From Bacillota bacterium (lineage in GTDB: Bacteria > Bacillota > Clostridia > Tissierellales > Tissierellaceae): DNA of 44,045 bases. The stretch covers positions 1 to 44,045 of the forward strand of contig JAUWAD010000006.1 of NCBI GenBank assembly GCA_030602225.1, given 5' to 3'. Numbering within the stretch: the stretch's first letter is position 1; each line of letters starts with the position of its first letter. Shown piece by piece: positions 17,054 through 40,627 of the stretch. The notes under the pieces are model-generated. The model ran no database searches. It saw nothing but the letters and a program-made list of their open reading frames with translations, and was not told the DNA's origin. A program made the position numbers and the translations under genes.

Positions 17054-18460
17054 ATGAAAAGTAGAGAGTTTAATGACATCCTTATGCAAAATATTTTGCA
17101 GTACGGGAATATTGGTGTTCATGTAATTGATAAGGATAGAAAAACAATTATATATAATGAAGCAATGGCTGAACTGGAAGGTCTGGAGATTTTCCAGGTT
17201 ATGGATAAGGATATTCTACAGATTTTTCCCAGCTTAAATGAATATACTTCAACTCTTATCAAGGTTATAAATACTGGTGAACCCATAATCAACAGTACCC
17301 AAACCTACTTTAACTACAGAGGCCATTCCATAACCACCATTTCATCAACCATACCTCTTAAGAAGAATGGAATGGTAATTGGAGCCATGGAAATAGCTCA
17401 GGATGTCACTAACCTAAGAAAGTTATCAGATCAGCTGATGGAACTACAGCAGGAGCTAAAGGCCAGTAGAAAAGATGTGGAACAGAAAAAGGGAATTAAG
17501 AAGTATCACTTCAACAACATAATTGGCAATAATAAGGGACTTATTATAGCGAAGCAAATCGGTGAAAGAGCCAGCGAAACCCCTTCTAGTGTACTTATAT
17601 ATGGAGAAACAGGAACTGGAAAGGAGATGTTTGCTCAGAGTATTCACAACCATGGAATAAGAAGGAACAACACATTCATTGCTCAAAACTGTGCTGCAAT
17701 ACCTGATTCTCTCTTGGAAGGCATTCTTTTCGGGACGGAGAAGGGGGGATTTACTGGTGCAGTGGAAAGGGAAGGAATATTTGAACAAGCCAACGGTGGA
17801 ACCTTGCTCCTTGATGAGATAAACTCCATGAGTCTACCCCTTCAGGCAAAGCTGCTTAGGGTTTTGCAGGAGGGATATATAAGGAGAATCGGTGGATTAA
17901 AGGATATACCAGTGGATGTAAGGATAATTGCAACAACCAATGAGGATCCAAAGGTATCAATGGAGAACAACTTAATCAGAAGGGATCTTTACTATAGGTT
18001 AAGTGTTATAAATATTCACATTCCACCCCTTAGAGAAAGATTAGATGATATGGAACTATTGGTAAACTTCTTTATCAATAAGTTCAATAAGCAGCTTAAT
18101 AAGAACATAACCTCCCTTTCAAGGGAGGTCAGGGAAGACTTCTTAAATTACTCCTGGCCTGGTAATATAAGGGAACTGGAGAACTTTATCGAAGGTGCCA
18201 TGAATATGGTATCTAGTCAGGATAAGGTACTTAATAGGGAAAACTTCATTACATCAAACTTTATCCCTAAGAAGACCAATATTGAAAGAACTATAATTCA
18301 AAAGCTTAGTACTTCATCCCTACCAGATATTATTAAGGATCTGGAGGATAGTATAATAGCTGATACCATGGACAGATACGGTGGTAACATCTCCAATGCA
18401 GCAAAACACTTAGGGTTAAAGCGTCAAACATTACAACATAAGTTAAAAAAAGATAAGTAA
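17054..18460 (+). CDS. Sigma-54-dependent activator (PAS, AAA+, Fis-type HTH), likely regulator of the ornithine operon
   Basis: A 468-residue bacterial enhancer-binding protein of the RocR-like type. An N-terminal PAS sensory region (about residues 12-125) is followed by a coiled linker and the AAA+ domain with Walker A GETGTGK (184-190), Walker B LLLDEI (251-256) and the R309/R310 region. A Fis-type helix-turn-helix ends the protein (NISNAAKHLGLKRQTLQHKL). The sigma-54 contact loop, normally GAFTGA, reads GGFTGA (231-236). A sigma-54 promoter for the ornithine operon lies 120 nt beyond its end, so it probably activates that operon; the signal (ornithine or another amino acid) is inferred. 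AGGAG before ATG 17054 supports the start. Confidence 0.92.
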   Translation: MKSREFNDILMQNILQYGNIGVHVIDKDRKTIIYNEAMAELEGLEIFQVMDKDILQIFPSLNEYTSTLIKVINTGEPIINSTQTYFNYRGHSITTISSTIPLKKNGMVIGAMEIAQDVTNLRKLSDQLMELQQELKASRKDVEQKKGIKKYHFNNIIGNNKGLIIAKQIGERASETPSSVLIYGETGTGKEMFAQSIHNHGIRRNNTFIAQNCAAIPDSLLEGILFGTEKGGFTGAVEREGIFEQANGGTLLLDEINSMSLPLQAKLLRVLQEGYIRRIGGLKDIPVDVRIIATTNEDPKVSMENNLIRRDLYYRLSVINIHIPPLRERLDDMELLVNFFINKFNKQLNKNITSLSREVREDFLNYSWPGNIRELENFIEGAMNMVSSQDKVLNRENFITSNFIPKKTNIERTIIQKLSTSSLPDIIKDLEDSIIADTMDRYGGNISNAAKHLGLKRQTLQHKLKKDK

Positions 18461-18508
18461 TGCAATAATATTTGCACCTGGTGCAAATATTATTGCATTT
18501 TATTTTTA
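18461..18508 (+). terminator. Long perfect palindrome: terminator and possible activator-binding site
   Basis: Arms 18461-18478 and 18480-18497 form a perfect 18-nt inverted repeat around one base (in RNA, a 17-bp stem with a 3-nt loop), followed by a T-rich tract. It should terminate the activator transcript. Its centre is about 128 nt upstream of the predicted sigma-54 start, a normal place for an enhancer, so the DNA palindrome may also bind the activator. The second role is inference. Confidence 0.8.
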
Positions 18509-18579
18509 TATTAACAGAAAATTAAGACATAATTACCCTAAAAACTGGGTATTTATATGAATATTGCAGATAAAAGCCC

Positions 18580-18596
18580 TTGGCATGATATTTGCA
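18580..18596 (+). promoter_or_regulatory. Sigma-54 (-24/-12) promoter of the ornithine operon
   Basis: TTGGCATGATATTTGCA matches the sigma-54 consensus YTGGCACGRNNNTTGCW with one mismatch. The GG (18582-18583) and GC (18594-18595) have the required 10 nt between them. The predicted transcription start is about 18607, 32 nt before ord. The neighbouring activator gene supports the call. Confidence 0.9.
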
Positions 18597-18638: not shown

Positions 18639-19685
18639 ATGAGAGAAAAAAATGTAAGAGTAATTATTTGGGGTTTAGGAGCTATGGGTAGTGGAATGGC
18701 AGATATGCTCTTAAAGAAAAAAGGAGTAGAAATCGTAGGTGCTGTTGGAAGAGGACCAAAGGTTGGAAAGAGCATGTACGATTATATAAAGACCGAAAGA
18801 GGAGACAGACCAGATGTTATCATTGGTACACCAGAAGATGTTATTAAAGAGGGAGCAGCAGATGTGGTTCTTTCAGCTACTGATTCCTATACAAAAGTTG
18901 CTTTTGATAGACTGAAGTTCATCCTTGAGAAGAAGATTAACGTAATTTCATCTGCAGAGGAAATGTCATATCCAATGGCTCAATCCCCCGAGGAAGCTAA
19001 GAAATTAGATAAAATTGCTAAGGATAATGGTGTATCAATCCTTGGTACAGGAATTAATCCTGGACTAATTATGGATCTACTGGTTGTACTTATGACTGGT
19101 GCTTGTGAATCAGTGGATCATATAGTAGCTAGAAGAATCAACTCGCTTTCTCCATTTGGACCAGCTGTTATGGAAGAGCAGGGAATCGGTATGACAAAGG
19201 AAGCGTTCCTTCATGGGGTTGAAACTGGACATTTGGCAGGACATGTTGGATTCCCAGAGTCAATTAGAATGGTAGCTGATGCAATTGGCTGGAAGGTTGA
19301 CAAGATAGAACAATCCATGGATCCTATAATGACTGATGTGGATAGAAAATCTGAATATGGTTTTGCTCCTGCAGGGCATGTTGCTGGTTGTGCAATGAAG
19401 GGATATGGATACGTTGATGGAGAAATGAAAATTGAGATGGATCACCCACAACAAATAGAGCCTGAGCAAGTTGGAGTTCAAACTGGAGACTATGTAATAA
19501 TTAAAGGTACTCCAGATATTAACCTTATTAACTCTCCAGAGGTTCCAGGTGGAATTGGTACAATAGCTATGTGCGTTAATATGATTCCTCATATTATCAA
19601 TGCAAAGCCAGGATTAAGAACTATGCTTGATCTACCAGTACCTAGAGCAATCATGGGTGATATGAGAGAATTAATAGAAGACTAA
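18639..19685 (+). CDS. ord: 2,4-diaminopentanoate dehydrogenase
   Basis: NAD(P)-dependent enzyme that oxidatively deaminates 2,4-diaminopentanoate to 2-amino-4-ketopentanoate, the step after the aminomutase in ornithine fermentation. The 348 residues start with a Rossmann dinucleotide loop IIWGLGAMGSGMA (G12, G14, G17), as in dihydrodipicolinate-reductase-like folds. The GTGINPGLIMD block and the C-terminal region fit the Ord family. It is the first gene behind the sigma-54 promoter. CGGAGGTGG directly upstream of ATG 18639 is a strong ribosome binding site. Context of ortA, ortB, oraS, oraE and orr makes the call firm. Confidence 0.95.
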   Translation: MREKNVRVIIWGLGAMGSGMADMLLKKKGVEIVGAVGRGPKVGKSMYDYIKTERGDRPDVIIGTPEDVIKEGAADVVLSATDSYTKVAFDRLKFILEKKINVISSAEEMSYPMAQSPEEAKKLDKIAKDNGVSILGTGINPGLIMDLLVVLMTGACESVDHIVARRINSLSPFGPAVMEEQGIGMTKEAFLHGVETGHLAGHVGFPESIRMVADAIGWKVDKIEQSMDPIMTDVDRKSEYGFAPAGHVAGCAMKGYGYVDGEMKIEMDHPQQIEPEQVGVQTGDYVIIKGTPDINLINSPEVPGGIGTIAMCVNMIPHIINAKPGLRTMLDLPVPRAIMGDMRELIED

Positions 19686-19757: not shown

Positions 19758-19782
19758 CATGTAATTAGAAAGGATGAAAAAG

Positions 19783-20094
19783 ATGAACGCAAAACGCGGT
19801 GATTGGGTACGTATCCATAAAATTGTACTTAATGTAGGCGAAAGAGCTCCTAATATTCCTGAGGATACTCAAAATGTTCCCCTGGAGTTATGGGATAAGG
19901 GATTCTTGATTAATGAAGAAGCCAAATTAGGCGATATTGTAGAAGTCGAAACTTACATCGGTAGAAGGATTGAAGGAACACTAATTGAAGTAAATCCATA
20001 CTGGGGTCATGATTATGGTAAGGCTGTACCTGAAATTCTATATATAGGAAGACAGGCAAGACAATTATTGGAAGAAGGTGAAATCAATGACTAG
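19783..20094 (+). CDS. ortA: 2-amino-4-ketopentanoate thiolase, alpha subunit
   Basis: The small subunit of the thiolase that cleaves 2-amino-4-ketopentanoate with CoA to acetyl-CoA and D-alanine. The 103 residues (RGDWVRIHKIVLNVGERAPNIP and VNPYWGHDYG blocks) match the OrtA family in length and sequence. ATG 19783 is chosen over ATG 19774, because AAAGGA (19768-19773) has normal spacing only to the former. The last 8 nt overlap the ortB start, fitting coupled synthesis of the two subunits. The family is essentially restricted to amino-acid-fermenting anaerobes. Confidence 0.94.
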   Translation: MNAKRGDWVRIHKIVLNVGERAPNIPEDTQNVPLELWDKGFLINEEAKLGDIVEVETYIGRRIEGTLIEVNPYWGHDYGKAVPEILYIGRQARQLLEEGEIND

Positions 20095-21520
20095 AGATTT
20101 AAGCTTTAATGCTGTTATGGGTAGAAAATCGGAAATTATGAAAAAGTCTGTGGGAATTGATTATGCTGAATTTGAATCAGGTAGTATCTCGTTTGATTAT
20201 GAAAGAATGATGAAGGAAACTGGATATAGCCTTCAGGAAATTGAAGAAATACAAAAACAAACTACAGTTGGGAATACACCTCTATATGAGTTGAGAAATA
20301 TAACGGCATTGGCAAGAAAGTATGCTCCTGAAGGAAAGGGAGCAAGGATTTTCATAAAGGATGAAGCGAGCAATCCTTCTGGAAGCTTCAAGGCTAGAAG
20401 AGCTGCAACGGCAGTGTACCATGCCCAAAAGCTTGGTTACAAGGGAGTTATAGCTGCAACCAGTGGAAATTATGGATCAGCGGTTGCATCCCAGGCAGCC
20501 ATGAGGGGATTAAAGTGCATAATAGTTCAGGAGTGTTATGATTCAAAGGGAGTAGGTCAGCCTGAAATCATTGAAAAGGCTAGAGCTTGTGAGGCATATG
20601 GGGCAGAAGTTGTTCAGCTTTCAGTTGGACCTGAGCTTTTCTATTCATTCCTTCTGCTTCTAGAAGAGACTGGATATTTCAATGCATCCCTTTACACTCC
20701 ATTTGGAATAGCTGGAGTTGAGACATTGGGATATGAGCTTTCCATGGAATTTAGAGAAAAAGAAGGAAAGGACCCAGATGTGGTTGTGGTTACAAACGCA
20801 GGAGGAGGAAATCTAACTGGTACAGCCAGAGGTCTAATAAAGGCTGGAGCACTCAATAGTCAAATAATAGGTGCATCCGTTTCATTGGCTGGTCTTCATA
20901 TGGCCAGTGATGAGCAATTCAACAAGAAGTCTTTTACAACTGGTCATACTGGATTTGGTATTCCATTTGCCACCTGGCCAGATAGATCAGATGTTCCAAG
21001 ATCAGCGGCAAGACCACTAAGATATGTGGATAGATACGTTACAGTTAATCAGGGTTCTGTTTTCTATATGACTGAATTACTTGCACAGGTGGAGGGACTG
21101 GAAAGAGGTCCTGCTGGAAACACTGCATTGGCTGCAGCATTTGTTCTGGCTCAGGAGTTGGATCAGGATCAAATAATTGTTGTTCAGGAAACTGAATATA
21201 CCGGTGCTGGCAAGCATATTCTTCCTCAGCTTACATTTGCCAAGGAAAATGGCATCAAGATTCTTAAGGGAGATCCAAAGGATGAAGTGCCAGGGGAGAC
21301 CATAATTCTACCTGAGAATCCATCAAAACTTTGTGTTGATGAGCTGGATCTTGGAAAAATAAAGAAATCATATATTAGAAATTGCATAAATAATACTGGA
21401 GCACAGGAAGTAAACCATGAGGACCTGGAGTTTTTAGTTGCTGATACAAAATCAAGTGTTGAGTTTGTGAAATCTGCCTTGGAAGAACTAGGTGTAAATC
21501 TTAAATTGGAGGAAAAATAA
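20087..21520 (+). CDS. ortB: 2-amino-4-ketopentanoate thiolase, beta subunit (PLP-dependent)
   Basis: The large, PLP-binding subunit of the thiolase, with a threonine-synthase/tryptophan-synthase-beta fold. The 477 residues contain NPSGSFKARRA with the probable PLP lysine K102, the TSGNYGSAVASQAA phosphate-binding or substrate loop, and the glycine-rich NAGGGNLTG segment. ATG 20087 has GAAGGTG (20074-20080) upstream; the GTG at 20078 lies within that site and is rejected. The gene overlaps ortA by 8 nt and its stop overlaps the oraS start (TAATG), so thiolase and mutase subunits are translationally linked. Confidence 0.95.
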   Translation: MTRDLSFNAVMGRKSEIMKKSVGIDYAEFESGSISFDYERMMKETGYSLQEIEEIQKQTTVGNTPLYELRNITALARKYAPEGKGARIFIKDEASNPSGSFKARRAATAVYHAQKLGYKGVIAATSGNYGSAVASQAAMRGLKCIIVQECYDSKGVGQPEIIEKARACEAYGAEVVQLSVGPELFYSFLLLLEETGYFNASLYTPFGIAGVETLGYELSMEFREKEGKDPDVVVVTNAGGGNLTGTARGLIKAGALNSQIIGASVSLAGLHMASDEQFNKKSFTTGHTGFGIPFATWPDRSDVPRSAARPLRYVDRYVTVNQGSVFYMTELLAQVEGLERGPAGNTALAAAFVLAQELDQDQIIVVQETEYTGAGKHILPQLTFAKENGIKILKGDPKDEVPGETIILPENPSKLCVDELDLGKIKKSYIRNCINNTGAQEVNHEDLEFLVADTKSSVEFVKSALEELGVNLKLEEK

Positions 21521-21885
21521 TGAGAAGAGAAGATGATTTTCAAGTTAGAAGAGAGCATTTGGCTAAGATGACTGAGGAACAGTTGGAAAACCGTTTCTGG
21601 GAGTTAGCTGAAAAGCTAGTTGACCCAATTATCGATCTGGGATATAAGAACACAAGTCCTTCCATTGAGAGAAGTGTACTACTTAGAATGGGATTTTCCA
21701 GTGTTGAGGCTAAAGCGATTGTGGATAATGCAATTGATAGAGGTCTAATTGGAAAAGGAGCAGGTCATATAGTATATAGACTTGCCAAGGCGAAGAATTT
21801 ACCTATAAGAGAAGCAGGTTTGTTGCTTGTTGATAATACCCATTGGGATGAAGTAAAGGCTATGTTTAATGGAGGTGCCAAATAA
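21520..21885 (+). CDS. oraS: D-ornithine 4,5-aminomutase, S (alpha) subunit
   Basis: The small subunit of the adenosylcobalamin- and PLP-dependent mutase that moves the delta-amino group of D-ornithine to C4, giving 2,4-diaminopentanoate. The 121 residues (REDDFQVRREHLAKMTEEQLENRFWELAEKL-like N terminus; GAGHIVYRLAK) match the OraS family, and length is typical. Its start overlaps the ortB stop, and its stop overlaps the oraE start (both TAATG), which would favour balanced subunit synthesis. It has no cofactor motif of its own; catalytic groups are in OraE. Confidence 0.94.
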   Translation: MRREDDFQVRREHLAKMTEEQLENRFWELAEKLVDPIIDLGYKNTSPSIERSVLLRMGFSSVEAKAIVDNAIDRGLIGKGAGHIVYRLAKAKNLPIREAGLLLVDNTHWDEVKAMFNGGAK

Positions 21886-24101
21886 TGGAACTTAAACCAA
21901 ATGAGAAATTGGACATTAAGGAGTTACTAAAGGATCTTGAAAACTATAGACCCAAGAGAAGGGGATGGCACTGGAGAGATGGAGTAGGAGAAAGTAGAAA
22001 AATCGGTAAGTTCAATTACTACGATACATCAGAAAGTCTTAAGCAATCCCAGCCACTTCCAGCGGCAAAGTACTTTGATAGTATCGATCCCCAACCCCAG
22101 CCAGTAATCACCACAGAAATAGCATCTGGTAGGTTTGAGGATGATATAAGAAGAATGCGCATGGCTGCTTGGCATGGTGCGGATCATATAATGGTAATTA
22201 GAACAGCTGGACAGTCCCACTTTGAAAGTCTTATTGAAGGAACACCTCAGGGTGTTGGTGGAATTCCAATAAGTAGAAAGCAGGTTAGAGCTCAGAGAAA
22301 AGCCCTTGATCTAATAGAGGAGGAAGTTGGAAGACCAATAAACTACCATTCATACGTTTCTGGTGTGGCTGGTCCTGAAATAGCTGTAATGTTTGCAGAA
22401 GAAGGAGTAAACGGTGCCCACCAGGATCCTCAGTACAACGTATTGTATAGAAATATCAACATGATCAGATCATTTGTTGATGCTGCTGAAGCTAAGAAGG
22501 TCATGACATGGGCAGATATCGCCCAGATAGATGGAGCTCACAATGCCAATGCAACAGCTAGGGAAGCTTGGAAGGTAATGCCTGAACTTATGGTTCAACA
22601 TGGCATAAATTCCATGTTCTCAGTGAAGGTGGGAATGAAGAAGGGAAATATCTGTTTATCAACTGTACCACCAACGGCACCTCCTGCTCCTTGCATGAGG
22701 CTGGATCTACCATATGCTGTGGCATTAAGAGATATATTCAAAGAGTACAGAATGAGAGCACAGATGAATACCAAGTACATGGAATCCTCAACAAGAGAAG
22801 CCACTGTTACTCACGTATTGAATCTACTAATCTCTCAACTTACATCAGCTGATATTCAATCAACCATAACTCCTGATGAAGGAAGAAATGTTCCATGGCA
22901 TATTTACAATATTGAAGCTGTTGATACTGCAAAGCAGGCTTTCAATGGAATGGATGGACTTATGAGTATGCTGGAGTTAAAAAGAGAGGGTACTGAGCTG
23001 GGAGATAAGGTAAGGGAGCTTAAGGAAAGAGCAATTCTTTTCATGGAAGAGATGCTAGAAAGTGGTGGATACTTTGAAGCTGTACAAGCAGGATTCTTCG
23101 TTGACTCTGGTTACTATCCAGAAAGAAATGGTGATGGTATTGTTAGAAAGATAGATGGCGGTGTAGGTGTGGGAACAGTGTATGAAAGAGACGCTGATTA
23201 CATGGCTCCTGTTACTGCTCACTTTGGATATAACAACCTATTACAATATGGAGATGAATATGTGGAAAATCCATCTATATTGGTGGGTGGAACCACATTT
23301 GAGGATCCATCAAAGATTATCTACATTGACGAGTTGGATGAAACTGACAATGTAAATGTAAGACTTGAAGAAGTGAAGGAGTTTGTGGGAACTACAAATA
23401 TAAAACCTGAGATGGAATGGAGAGGAGATGGAATTATCCATATTACCATGTTCCTTCCAACTGATATCAGAACCGCTGAATTTGCAGGACTTGAAATGGC
23501 CAAGAAGATGAATCTAAGAGATCCTGAAGTAATCCACAAGGAAGTCATGCAGGAAGCTGAAGGCACAAGAGTTGAGATAAAGGGAAGACTAGATGTGACA
23601 ATTGATACAACAAAGCTTGTAATTCCACCAAAACCAGAGGAATTATCTGAAGATGAGCTAAGGGCTGATATAGCTTCTAAGCCAATGAAGATAGTTGCTG
23701 CAACTGTTGGTGAAGATGAGCACTCTGTTGGTATCAGAGAAATAATTGACATCAAGCATGGTGGAATTGAAAAGTATGGAATTCAGTGTCATATCCTTGG
23801 AACTTCAGTGTCAGTTGAAAAGCTGGTTGATGCAGCAATTGAAATTAATGCTGATGCAATCCTCACTTCAACAATCATCTCCCATGATGACATCCACTAC
23901 AAGAACATGAAGAAGCTTCATGAGTATGCCATAGAGAAGGGAATCAGAGATGATGTAATAATAATCTCTGGAGGAACTCAGGTTTCCAATGAACTTGCAG
24001 TGCAAAATGGTATGGATGCAGGATTTGGCCGTGGAACTAAAGGTTCCCACGTAGCCACATTCCTAGTTAAGAAAAGACGTGAAATGGAAAATGAGAATTA
24101 A
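21885..24101 (+). CDS. oraE: D-ornithine 4,5-aminomutase, E (beta) subunit
   Basis: The catalytic subunit of ornithine aminomutase. The 738 residues comprise a TIM-barrel PLP domain followed by a Rossmann-like B12 domain at the C terminus. The cobalamin-binding DxHxxG motif is D-E-H613-S-V-G, and eleven residues on is K624 in IDIKHGG. This spacing matches H618 and K629, the cobalamin and PLP ligands described for the Clostridium sticklandii enzyme. Both key residues are present, so the enzyme should be active. The start overlaps oraS by one base; the 3' end overlaps the GlmL-like gene. Confidence 0.96.
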   Translation: MELKPNEKLDIKELLKDLENYRPKRRGWHWRDGVGESRKIGKFNYYDTSESLKQSQPLPAAKYFDSIDPQPQPVITTEIASGRFEDDIRRMRMAAWHGADHIMVIRTAGQSHFESLIEGTPQGVGGIPISRKQVRAQRKALDLIEEEVGRPINYHSYVSGVAGPEIAVMFAEEGVNGAHQDPQYNVLYRNINMIRSFVDAAEAKKVMTWADIAQIDGAHNANATAREAWKVMPELMVQHGINSMFSVKVGMKKGNICLSTVPPTAPPAPCMRLDLPYAVALRDIFKEYRMRAQMNTKYMESSTREATVTHVLNLLISQLTSADIQSTITPDEGRNVPWHIYNIEAVDTAKQAFNGMDGLMSMLELKREGTELGDKVRELKERAILFMEEMLESGGYFEAVQAGFFVDSGYYPERNGDGIVRKIDGGVGVGTVYERDADYMAPVTAHFGYNNLLQYGDEYVENPSILVGGTTFEDPSKIIYIDELDETDNVNVRLEEVKEFVGTTNIKPEMEWRGDGIIHITMFLPTDIRTAEFAGLEMAKKMNLRDPEVIHKEVMQEAEGTRVEIKGRLDVTIDTTKLVIPPKPEELSEDELRADIASKPMKIVAATVGEDEHSVGIREIIDIKHGGIEKYGIQCHILGTSVSVEKLVDAAIEINADAILTSTIISHDDIHYKNMKKLHEYAIEKGIRDDVIIISGGTQVSNELAVQNGMDAGFGRGTKGSHVATFLVKKRREMENEN

Positions 24102-25458
24102 TCTACTGGTTGCAGAAATAGGCAGTACCACCACTGTGGTTAATGCCTTTGATGATATTGAAAAGGATCCGAAATTTATTGGTCAAGGACAGGGTGCCAC
24201 CTCTGTCCTTGAAGGTGATGTAAATATAGGTTTAAAGGAAGCAATAGATGATCTTTGCAGAAATTTAAAAATATCATCCATAGAATACGATGACCTTATA
24301 GCCACCAGCTCCGCCGCTGGTGGACTTAGAATGAGTGTTCATGGTTTGGTATATGATATGACAGTAAGAGCTGCCAAGGAGGCAGCATTAGGTGCTGGTG
24401 CCAATATAAAGTACATTACTGCAGGGAAACTAAGAAAATCTGATCTTAGAAAGATAAAGGAGATAAATCCAAATATCATTCTTATCGCCGGAGGTGTGGA
24501 CTTTGGAGAAAGGGACACAGCCCTTTATAATAGTGAGCTTATTGCACAGATGAATTTGGGTATACCGGTTATTTATGCTGGAAACATAGAAAATCATGAA
24601 GATGTAAAAGATCTTTTCCGGGAAACTAATAATGAACTATATATAGTTGATAATGTATATCCAAAGATTGACGAACTGAATATCGAACCCACAAGAAAGG
24701 TCATTCAGTCAGTGTTTGAAATGCATATTATCCATGCTCCTGGAATGGAAAAAATAAGGGATATGGTTACAGGAAATATTATGCCAACTCCCGGAGCAGT
24801 GATGGAGGCCAGTCAGTTACTTTATGAGGAGATTGGAGATCTATTAACTGTGGATGTGGGTGGTGCAACAACTGATGTTCATTCTGTAACTGAAGACAGT
24901 GAAGAGATATCAAGGATAATCCTCAGTCCTGAACCAAAGGCGAAGAGAACTGTGGAAGGGGATCTGGGGGTTTATGTTAATATGAGAAACATAGTTGAGA
25001 TGGTTGGAGAAGAGGTTCTCATGGATGAACTGGATCTTGATGAGGATGGATTAGCTAATATCATCGCCCATCATAAGCAAATTCCAAAGAGCGAACTGGA
25101 AAAGAGATTTGTTGAAGTTCTCACTGAGCATGCCACCATAACTGCTGTAAAAAGACATGGCGGAAGACTTAAGAATCTTTATGGACCCAGTGGGAAGAAG
25201 ACCATAGCTGAAGGTAAGGATCTTACAGGTGTGAAGTATTTGATAGGTACTGGTGGAGCTCTTACCCGCTTGCCAAATAGAGTTAACATCCTTAGGATGA
25301 TACCTGATTCCAACAATGGTCTGGATCTGTTACCAAATAAGGATGTGGAAGTATTAATAGACAATCACTATATTATGGCATCCCTTGGAGTTATGAGTAA
25401 GAAATACCCAGAAGTTGCATTGGATTTACTGTTAAAGAGCTTCGGGCTAAGAAGTTAG
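24091..25458 (+). CDS. GlmL/MutL-family ATPase-like protein of the ornithine operon
   Basis: A 455-residue actin/Hsp70-fold protein of the family named after GlmL and MutL, found next to B12-dependent amino-acid mutases. The N terminus LLVAEIGSTTTVVNAF is the phosphate-1 loop, and VDVGGATTDVHSV (about residue 255) is the second nucleotide-binding loop. A role as repair or reactivation chaperone for the cobalamin mutase is inferred from context and from analogous mutase systems; it is not shown by sequence. The start is ATG 24091 (MRINLLVAEIG), overlapping oraE by 11 nt; a GTG at 24079 would add four residues but has no better ribosome binding site. Confidence 0.88.
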   Translation: MRINLLVAEIGSTTTVVNAFDDIEKDPKFIGQGQGATSVLEGDVNIGLKEAIDDLCRNLKISSIEYDDLIATSSAAGGLRMSVHGLVYDMTVRAAKEAALGAGANIKYITAGKLRKSDLRKIKEINPNIILIAGGVDFGERDTALYNSELIAQMNLGIPVIYAGNIENHEDVKDLFRETNNELYIVDNVYPKIDELNIEPTRKVIQSVFEMHIIHAPGMEKIRDMVTGNIMPTPGAVMEASQLLYEEIGDLLTVDVGGATTDVHSVTEDSEEISRIILSPEPKAKRTVEGDLGVYVNMRNIVEMVGEEVLMDELDLDEDGLANIIAHHKQIPKSELEKRFVEVLTEHATITAVKRHGGRLKNLYGPSGKKTIAEGKDLTGVKYLIGTGGALTRLPNRVNILRMIPDSNNGLDLLPNKDVEVLIDNHYIMASLGVMSKKYPEVALDLLLKSFGLRS

Positions 25459-25467
25459 GAGGATGTT

Positions 25468-26529
25468 ATGGGATATCCAAAGGTTGTAGTAGATACTAAG
25501 ATAATAACTGAGAATGTTAAATGCATAATTGAAAAGACAAAGTATAGGAATATTTCCATTGCCGGTGTGACCAAGGGTTATTGCGCATATCCTGAAATCG
25601 CCAAGGCTTTTGTTGATGGTGGAGTGGATTATCTGGCTGATTCCAGGCTGCAGAATCTTAAAAAGTTAAAGGATATAGCTGTTCCTAAGATGATGCTTAG
25701 ACTTCCCATGATTTCTGAAGCAGAGGAACTTGTAAAATATGCTGATATATCCCTTAACTCTGAGGTTAAAACCATTAAGGCACTGGATAAGGCTGCACAA
25801 AAAAATGGTAAGATCCATGAAATTATTCTTTTGATGGATCTGGGAGACTTAAGGGAAGGCTTCTTCAAAGAAGTGGATTTATTCCATGCTGTTGAAGAAA
25901 TAAAGGATCTATCATTTATAAAGATAAAGGGTCTTGGGGTAAACCTAACCTGTTATGGTGGAGTAATTCCAAAGACTAATATCCTAAAAAGACTTACTGC
26001 GCTGGCAGAAAGGATAAGAGAGGATTATAATATAGAACTTGAAATGATTTCAGGTGGAAATTCCAGCAGTATATATCTATTGGATGATGGATTGCCAGAG
26101 GGGATTAACAATTTAAGACTGGGAGAGGCAATTATCCTAGGAACTGAATCAGCATACGGAAAGACCATACCAGGGACCAATCCTAATGCATTTACCCTTA
26201 GGGCAGAAATCATTGAAATCAAGGAAAAGCCTTCAGTTCCCACTGAGGAAATAGGTAGGGATGCCTTCGGACAGATTCCAACCTTTGTGGATAGAGGAGT
26301 AAGAAGAAGAATGCTCCTTGCTGTTGGTAAGCAGGATATTGATATTGATACCCTTACCCCAACTGATGAAGATCTGATAATTCTTGGGGGAAGTTCTGAT
26401 CATCTTATCATTGATTCTACTGATTCCAAGATGGATTATAAGATCGGGGATATAGTATCCTTTAATATGCACTATGTATCCATGTTAAGGGTAATGACTT
26501 CTCCATATATTGAAAAAGAGATAATTTAG
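25468..26529 (+). CDS. orr: Ornithine racemase
   Basis: PLP-dependent racemase that converts L-ornithine to D-ornithine, the substrate of the aminomutase. The 353 residues have the alanine-racemase N-terminal barrel fold with the PLP lysine K36 in AGVTKGYCA. The LADSRLQNLKKL block and ISGGNSSSIYLL segment are typical of the ornithine/alanine racemase family. Genetic context selects ornithine over alanine. TTAGGAGGAT just before ATG 25468 is a strong ribosome binding site. It is the last gene of the operon and is followed by a terminator. Confidence 0.94.
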   Translation: MGYPKVVVDTKIITENVKCIIEKTKYRNISIAGVTKGYCAYPEIAKAFVDGGVDYLADSRLQNLKKLKDIAVPKMMLRLPMISEAEELVKYADISLNSEVKTIKALDKAAQKNGKIHEIILLMDLGDLREGFFKEVDLFHAVEEIKDLSFIKIKGLGVNLTCYGGVIPKTNILKRLTALAERIREDYNIELEMISGGNSSSIYLLDDGLPEGINNLRLGEAIILGTESAYGKTIPGTNPNAFTLRAEIIEIKEKPSVPTEEIGRDAFGQIPTFVDRGVRRRMLLAVGKQDIDIDTLTPTDEDLIILGGSSDHLIIDSTDSKMDYKIGDIVSFNMHYVSMLRVMTSPYIEKEII

Positions 26530-40560: not shown

Positions 40561-40627
40561 ATAATAGTATATTGTGGAAGGTATATCTTTCACAATATAC
40601 CATTATCATTTAAGTTTTTTAAATGAT
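40561..40627 (+). other. Two overlapping hairpins between alaS and ireB
   Basis: The first is a 16-bp near-perfect stem with one mismatch (40561-40576 with 40591-40606) and a 14-nt loop. The second is a 9-bp stem (40605-40613 with 40619-40627) with a GTTTT loop. They share bases at 40605-40606. Neither has a classical T-run after it, so they could be a weak terminator or an mRNA 3'-end structure of alaS. Confidence 0.55.

Follow-up and report, generated by a model that had tools for sequence, protein, structure and literature searches.

The window, the whole stretch of 44,045 nucleotides analysed here, contains the gene ordR, which encodes a sigma-54 activator, followed by the operon ord to orr of oxidative ornithine degradation (Table 1). 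According to Pfam, the product of ordR is composed of a PAS domain, an AAA+ Sigma54_activat domain and a Fis-type HTH_8 domain; its top match in NCBIfam is PrdR, with a score far under the cut-off. The arrangement is that of an OrdR regulon, with an OrdR orthologue adjoining ord-ortAB-oraSE-orr and a sigma-54 promoter. The gene rpoN, coding for sigma-54, is also present in this genome. The -12 half of the ord promoter, at positions 18588-18596 (ATATTTGCA), duplicates the inner half of the predicted OrdR site 1, probably only because TTGCA is common to both elements. A long hairpin (AAGTATGGGTAGAC / GTCTACTCATACTT, score 11) without T-tract is found between the end of ord (19685) and the start of ortA (19774); this might be an element of RNA processing or stability.

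Table 1. Features of the ordR-ord region, with their positions in the window and the basis of each assignment.
Feature	Position	Strand	Basis
ordR, sigma-54 activator, 468 aa; stop codon overlaps the palindrome	17054..18460	+	Pfam PF08448, PF00158, PF02954
Perfect inverted repeat, predicted ordR terminator hairpin, 41 nt	18459..18499	.	inverted-repeat search, folding
Predicted OrdR site 1 (TGCAATAATATTTGCA)	18461..18476	+	motif from 156 sites
CCTGG between the sites, loop end of the hairpin	18477..18481	+	differs in nearly every relative
Predicted OrdR site 2, identical to site 1 on the opposite strand	18482..18497	-	motif, locus comparison
T-rich tail, predicted terminator	18498..18511	+	sequence read, locus comparison
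Small inverted repeat TACCC/GGGTA	18534..18551	+	not conserved (nearest relatives L005, L006)
Sigma-54 -24/-12 promoter of the ord operon (TGGCATGATATTTGCA)	18581..18596	+	pattern; similar element before ord in most relatives
ord (2,4-diaminopentanoate dehydrogenase), which opens the target operon	18639..19685	+	NF040740, 538 bits (cut-off 400)
ortA, ortB, oraS, oraE, GlmL-like Or-4, orr; remaining ornithine oxidation operon	19774..26529	+	profile matches

An inverted repeat separates ordR from the ord promoter. Its two arms (18459-18478 and 18480-18499) are of 20 nt each, are 100% complementary and are separated by 1 nt. The original prediction had described a perfect palindrome of 37 nt with 18-nt arms; the palindrome does exist and its size had been underestimated, the interval 18461-18497 being the inner 37 nt of a 41-nt element. 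The TAA stop codon of ordR (18458-18460) already contains the first bases of the repeat. With the base composition of the window, about 1e-6 perfect inverted repeats whose arms measure 20 nt and whose loop is of at most 10 nt are expected by chance per window. This palindrome is the sole perfect inverted repeat of the window with arms above 12 nt, and the only longer arms, of 23 nt, are matched at 87% (40561-40606). The RNA of positions 18440-18515 folds with an energy of -28.2 kcal/mol versus -9.65 kcal/mol (sd 2.85) for shuffled sequences (z -6.5; none of the 200 shuffles equals it). The stable hairpin is placed right after the stop codon and passes the terminator scans, and the sequence 3' of the palindrome, which reads TTTTATTTTTAT, provides a U-tract. 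G-C pairs represent only 5 of the 19 stem pairs, the stem being long instead. A search of Rfam at E<=1 for a known RNA family gave only sub-threshold matches to microRNA families, which were judged to be due to chance. The palindrome is centred at -128 with respect to the approximate sigma-54 start of ord, in accordance with the value of about -128, a normal enhancer distance, that had been announced. The smaller repeat at 18534-18551, nearer to the promoter, is present as described; its letters are missing from the corresponding place in the two nearest aligned relatives (L005 and L006).

The best 80 of the 298 relatives found were retained. The 100 loci from relatives and the window, minus the 7 duplicates among these 101, gave 94 unique loci. 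A motif was grown from GCAA-N6-TTGC seeds in the regions upstream of ord, leading to 156 sites in which GCAA and TTGC are nearly invariant (partly by construction, as these are the seed letters) and the centre is variable and A/T-rich. In 72 of the 94 unique ord loci, the near-palindromic site TGCAAAwwwwTTTGCA occurs twice, at a distance of 20-24 bp. The spacing is 22 bp in 34 loci, 21 bp in 18, 23 bp in nine, 20 bp in seven and 24 bp in four. Conservation of the arm sequence beyond its potential to form a hairpin, which the original prediction proposed to look for in relatives, is observed in the ord loci. In the window, sites 1 and 2 are included one in each arm and are 21 bp apart from centre to centre, which corresponds to two helical turns. 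Such a 16-bp near-palindromic site, conserved and repeated in helical phase, is what is expected of a sigma-54 enhancer. The single site for one activator dimer that had been proposed is therefore replaced: from the comparison of sequences, the palindrome is most likely a pair of activator sites on one face of the helix, each arm being a near-palindromic site of its own. The core TTGCACC-GGTGCAA, suggested for comparison between genomes, does not hold as a unit, since TTGCA and TGCAA belong to the two sites, of which they form the inner ends, and the ACCTGGT centre is a variable loop. A promoter pattern was matched in 70 of the 72 pair loci; in these, the distance from the pair to the promoter has a median of -161 and a range of -385 to -95, within which the window lies. 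One locus, L020, has a different gene order: the pair abuts ordR and ord starts about 1.4 kb beyond, with another reading frame intervening.

The pair occurs together with its activator. In the retrieved DNA of the loci, an OrdR homologue is found near 70 of the 72 pairs (window included) versus 5 of the 22 loci devoid of a pair. Of the two exceptions, L011 is located at a contig end and L044 has a 53% match elsewhere in its genome. When the strict pair pattern was sought genome-wide, it was detected in 17 of 28 family genomes, once in each, and the reversed control in none of the 28. Fifteen of these 17 pairs adjoin ord, one adjoins ordR at a contig end and one (L130) adjoins neither. As the pair occurs only once in the genome studied here, OrdR probably has one target in this organism. 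At the level of the class (391 genomes), the strict pair was found in 37 genomes and the control pattern in 6; among the 28 new loci examined from this search (L132-L159), ord adjoins the pair in 14 and does not in the other 14. In locus L103, the C-terminus of ordR, at a contig end, carries an in-frame stop, the gene being maybe broken or the assembly wrong.

A pair is called abutting when it overlaps the ordR stop codon or lies at most 25 nt from it. This is the case in 50 of the 72 loci, and the 22 other pairs offer a natural comparison for a role in termination. Binding alone would leave the orientation of the sites free and would not require a match between their variable centres. Among the abutting pairs, 33 favour inverted identity and 6 direct identity, versus 8 and 6 among the 22 others. 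In 49 abutting loci, the six central bases are inverted-complementary at 83%, versus 60% with shuffled partners (0 of 5000 shuffles reach the observed value), whereas direct identity is 56% both in the real pairs and in the partner shuffles. The outermost base of the site, which forms the foot of the stem, covaries (76% versus 33% after shuffling), and the innermost base, on the loop side, does not (57% versus 58%). In the 23 other loci, the central inverted match is 65% versus 54% (10 of 5000 shuffles) and direct identity is 62% versus 55% (95 of 5000). The results for the central bases and for the stem foot persist in 13 representatives under 80% Ord identity.

A T-tract is found 3' of site 2 in 36 of the 50 abutting pairs versus 8 of the 22 others (p = 0.008). 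With a 48/24 grouping of the loci, T-tracts are present at 35 of 48 abutting pairs on the sense strand and 16 of 48 on the antisense strand, versus 9 of 24 and 10 of 24, respectively, at the others. An energy-based terminator scan, whose scores are uncalibrated on shuffled sequence, was applied to the 63 loci in which ordR lies at most 700 bp away: the hairpin of the pair passes in 38 of 47 abutting loci and in 9 of 16 loci where it is away from the stop (p = 0.09). Among the 38 abutting loci that pass, only 1 has another candidate terminator, versus 5 of the 9 failing loci (p = 0.0005). Alternative terminators are encountered mainly where the pair fails the scan, which suggests a replacement in loci whose pair does not terminate. 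Several results speak against a role in termination. The perfection of the arms is independent of the T-tract, all six central bases being complementary in 22 of 44 pairs with a T-tract and in 11 of 28 without. Long inverted pairs without abutting ordR and without T-tract are found in L035 and L074. Antisense T-tracts are frequent next to the pair in both groups, 9 of the 16 pairs away from the stop still pass the scan, and the stem of the window is poor in G-C pairs.

These observations can be read in several ways. The pair could be an enhancer only, the hairpin arising simply from the near-palindromic nature of the two sites, with ordR ending elsewhere or being read through. Near-palindromic sites always yield some hairpin, the pairs away from the ordR stop keep their sites without preference for the inverted arrangement, and the independence of arm perfection and T-tract also agrees with this reading. 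We nevertheless hold it to be unlikely in view of the preference of abutting pairs for the inverted over the direct arrangement (33 to 6), the covariation of the bases at the base of the stem and not on its loop side, the T-tract after 36 of 50 abutting pairs and the lack of any other candidate terminator in 37 of the 38 abutting loci that pass the scan. The inverse proposal, an ordinary and unusually long intrinsic terminator of ordR with the activator bound elsewhere, accounts for the stable hairpin at the stop codon and for the T-tract. It is very improbable, as the letters of the arms are kept beyond the needs of pairing (GCAA and TTGC being near-invariant in the 156 sites, in part by construction), the spacing is kept at 20-24 bp, and the pair persists before the ord promoter even when ordR is distant or another gene precedes the pair (L023, L035, L017 and L074).

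A mutational origin was also considered, in which template switching during replication perfects imperfect palindromes without selection for termination. In L052, L077 and L035, the arms indeed extend far beyond the sites (29, 23 and 29 nt, respectively), and in L035 no terminator is needed at the pair. This process should, however, act at any close pair of sites, yet L015, L032, L013 and L063 keep direct copies, and both complementarity and T-tract are found above all at the pairs abutting ordR; we judge it quite unlikely, although some palindromes could have been perfected in this way. Finally, the half-sites of NtrC are TGCACC and GGTGCA, spaced by 4-5 nt, and the centre of the palindrome (TGCACC-T-GGTGCA) resembles them, as would a site for the general nitrogen regulator rather than for OrdR. 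The spacing is here of 1 nt and CC-T-GG is not kept in the other pair loci, the centre being variable, and this reading was rejected as hardly credible.

The comparison of the 94 unique ord loci supports the proposal, already contained in the original prediction, of a single element that both terminates the activator gene and serves as its enhancer. As judged from sequence, the palindrome is most likely a fused OrdR enhancer pair and ordR terminator. The computed support is that the element comprises two sites, that this structure is conserved and linked to ordR, and that complementarity and T-tracts are in excess where the pair abuts the gene. At the level of DNA, the element would offer two OrdR sites, one per arm, about 128 bp upstream of the sigma-54 promoter of ord. 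By analogy with the class of activators to which OrdR belongs, two OrdR dimers on these sites would assemble an AAA+ ring and loop to the promoter. At the level of RNA, the inverted sites are predicted to pair with each other in a hairpin immediately adjoining the ordR stop codon; together with the U-rich tract 3' of it, this hairpin would end the ordR transcript before ord.

In such an arrangement, the transcription of ordR would cross its own enhancer and stop just beyond it. That this represents a recurrent design of clostridial sigma-54 activators, with a built-in feedback, is a tentative and rather doubtful idea. The bound activator might block its own message, or cut it short where the stop codon lies, and might in turn be stripped off the enhancer by each new transcript of its gene.

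A collection of 107 activator 3' ends was inspected in relation to this wider pattern: 8 come from the same genome (window included) and 99 from relatives (out of 100, L180 having no stop). The activators of the relatives were hand-picked, and not taken at random, among the 150-odd matches listed. An inverted repeat with a score of at least 10 near the stop is found in 25 of the 79 ends with a downstream sigma-54 pattern versus 3 of the 28 without. Within the window, such repeats are found at 4 of 41 genes. Both controls are loose, many of the window genes lying inside operons. The test for self-palindromic arms gives p < 0.02 in 5 of 28 cases and p = 0.18 for the arm of the window itself, and this test is therefore weak. 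Many of the repeats at activator 3' ends are without T-tract; together with the weak arm test, this makes the wider pattern a lead only.

Several individual loci of this collection can be described. The arrangement of the window recurs in the same genome (L166, contig 22) with an unrelated sigma-54 activator, beside agmatinase-like and permease-like genes: its stop codon falls within an inverted repeat made of GGAATAAATTCC units, and a third exact copy of the unit is located closer to a sigma-54 promoter. Four family genomes (L172, L179, L259 and L265) contain related activators with long inverted repeats of TGCAAAATTTGCA-like near-palindromic units at their stops; L172, L259 and L265 adjoin glutamate-symporter-like genes (the neighbours being named from their translations alone) and L179 was grouped with them by its similar C-terminus. 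The activator of L177, beside an aldehyde-oxidoreductase-like gene, also displays a long inverted repeat of near-palindromic units at its stop. In L267, an activator beside a diaminopropionate ammonia-lyase-like gene has at its stop a perfect inverted repeat, 42 nt long and built of TTATCAAAATGATAA units, without T-tract, and a third exact TTATCAAAATGATAA copy is located downstream.

An enhancer and a terminator are usually two distinct elements. If a single sequence serves for both, termination of the activator message is coupled to the access of the activator to its target promoter, and a testable interference is predicted between the production of the activator and its use. Inverted repeats located 3' of regulator genes are usually filed as terminators and may hide enhancer pairs. 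The OrdR site in its readable form (TGCAAAwwwwTTTGCA twice, 20-24 bp apart) can serve for annotating ornithine fermentation in anaerobes.

The activator and the target operon of the window are the same as those of the OrdR regulon of Clostridiales in the available text of Nie et al. (2019; PMC6615313), where a sigma-54 promoter and OrdR sites are predicted before ord in five species, the OrdR motif is called distinct and most activator groups are said to have multiple sites. Geosporobacter ferrireducens is one of these five species in that text, and its locus (L070) carries the pair in our comparison. The site found here presumably corresponds to the published OrdR motif. Unlike the dual role proposed here, the main text of that paper, in the form available, contains neither "terminator" nor "palindrom". 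In Clostridioides difficile, a sigma-54 promoter has been mapped upstream of ord, with OrdR as the associated regulator (PMC7438776, available part). The AdhR enhancer of Clostridium beijerinckii, whose sites were tested by mutation and gel shift, resembles the OrdR pair in having multiple sites for a sigma-54 activator and differs from it in having three of them; the main text of that report, as available, mentions no terminator, stem-loop or inverted repeat (PMC7017808). According to the accessible part of PMC9180970, inverted repeats show an enrichment near stop codons, where they belong to terminators.

An activator enhancer of this paired kind forming the terminator of its own gene was not found in the literature searched, which covers few subscription journals. 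As far as these searches reach, the OrdR enhancer is known in kind and was already predicted in print, and its fusion with a terminator is undescribed. The RocR enhancer of Bacillus subtilis rocG is, like the OrdR pair, a sigma-54 enhancer adjoining the 3' end of a gene. Unlike the OrdR pair, it lies beyond a target gene and is not known to be the terminator of the activator gene. With the intrinsic (Rho-independent) terminators, the palindrome shares the hairpin and the U-tract at the stop codon, whereas its A+T-rich stem of 19-20 bp, built of two predicted protein-binding sites, distinguishes it from them.
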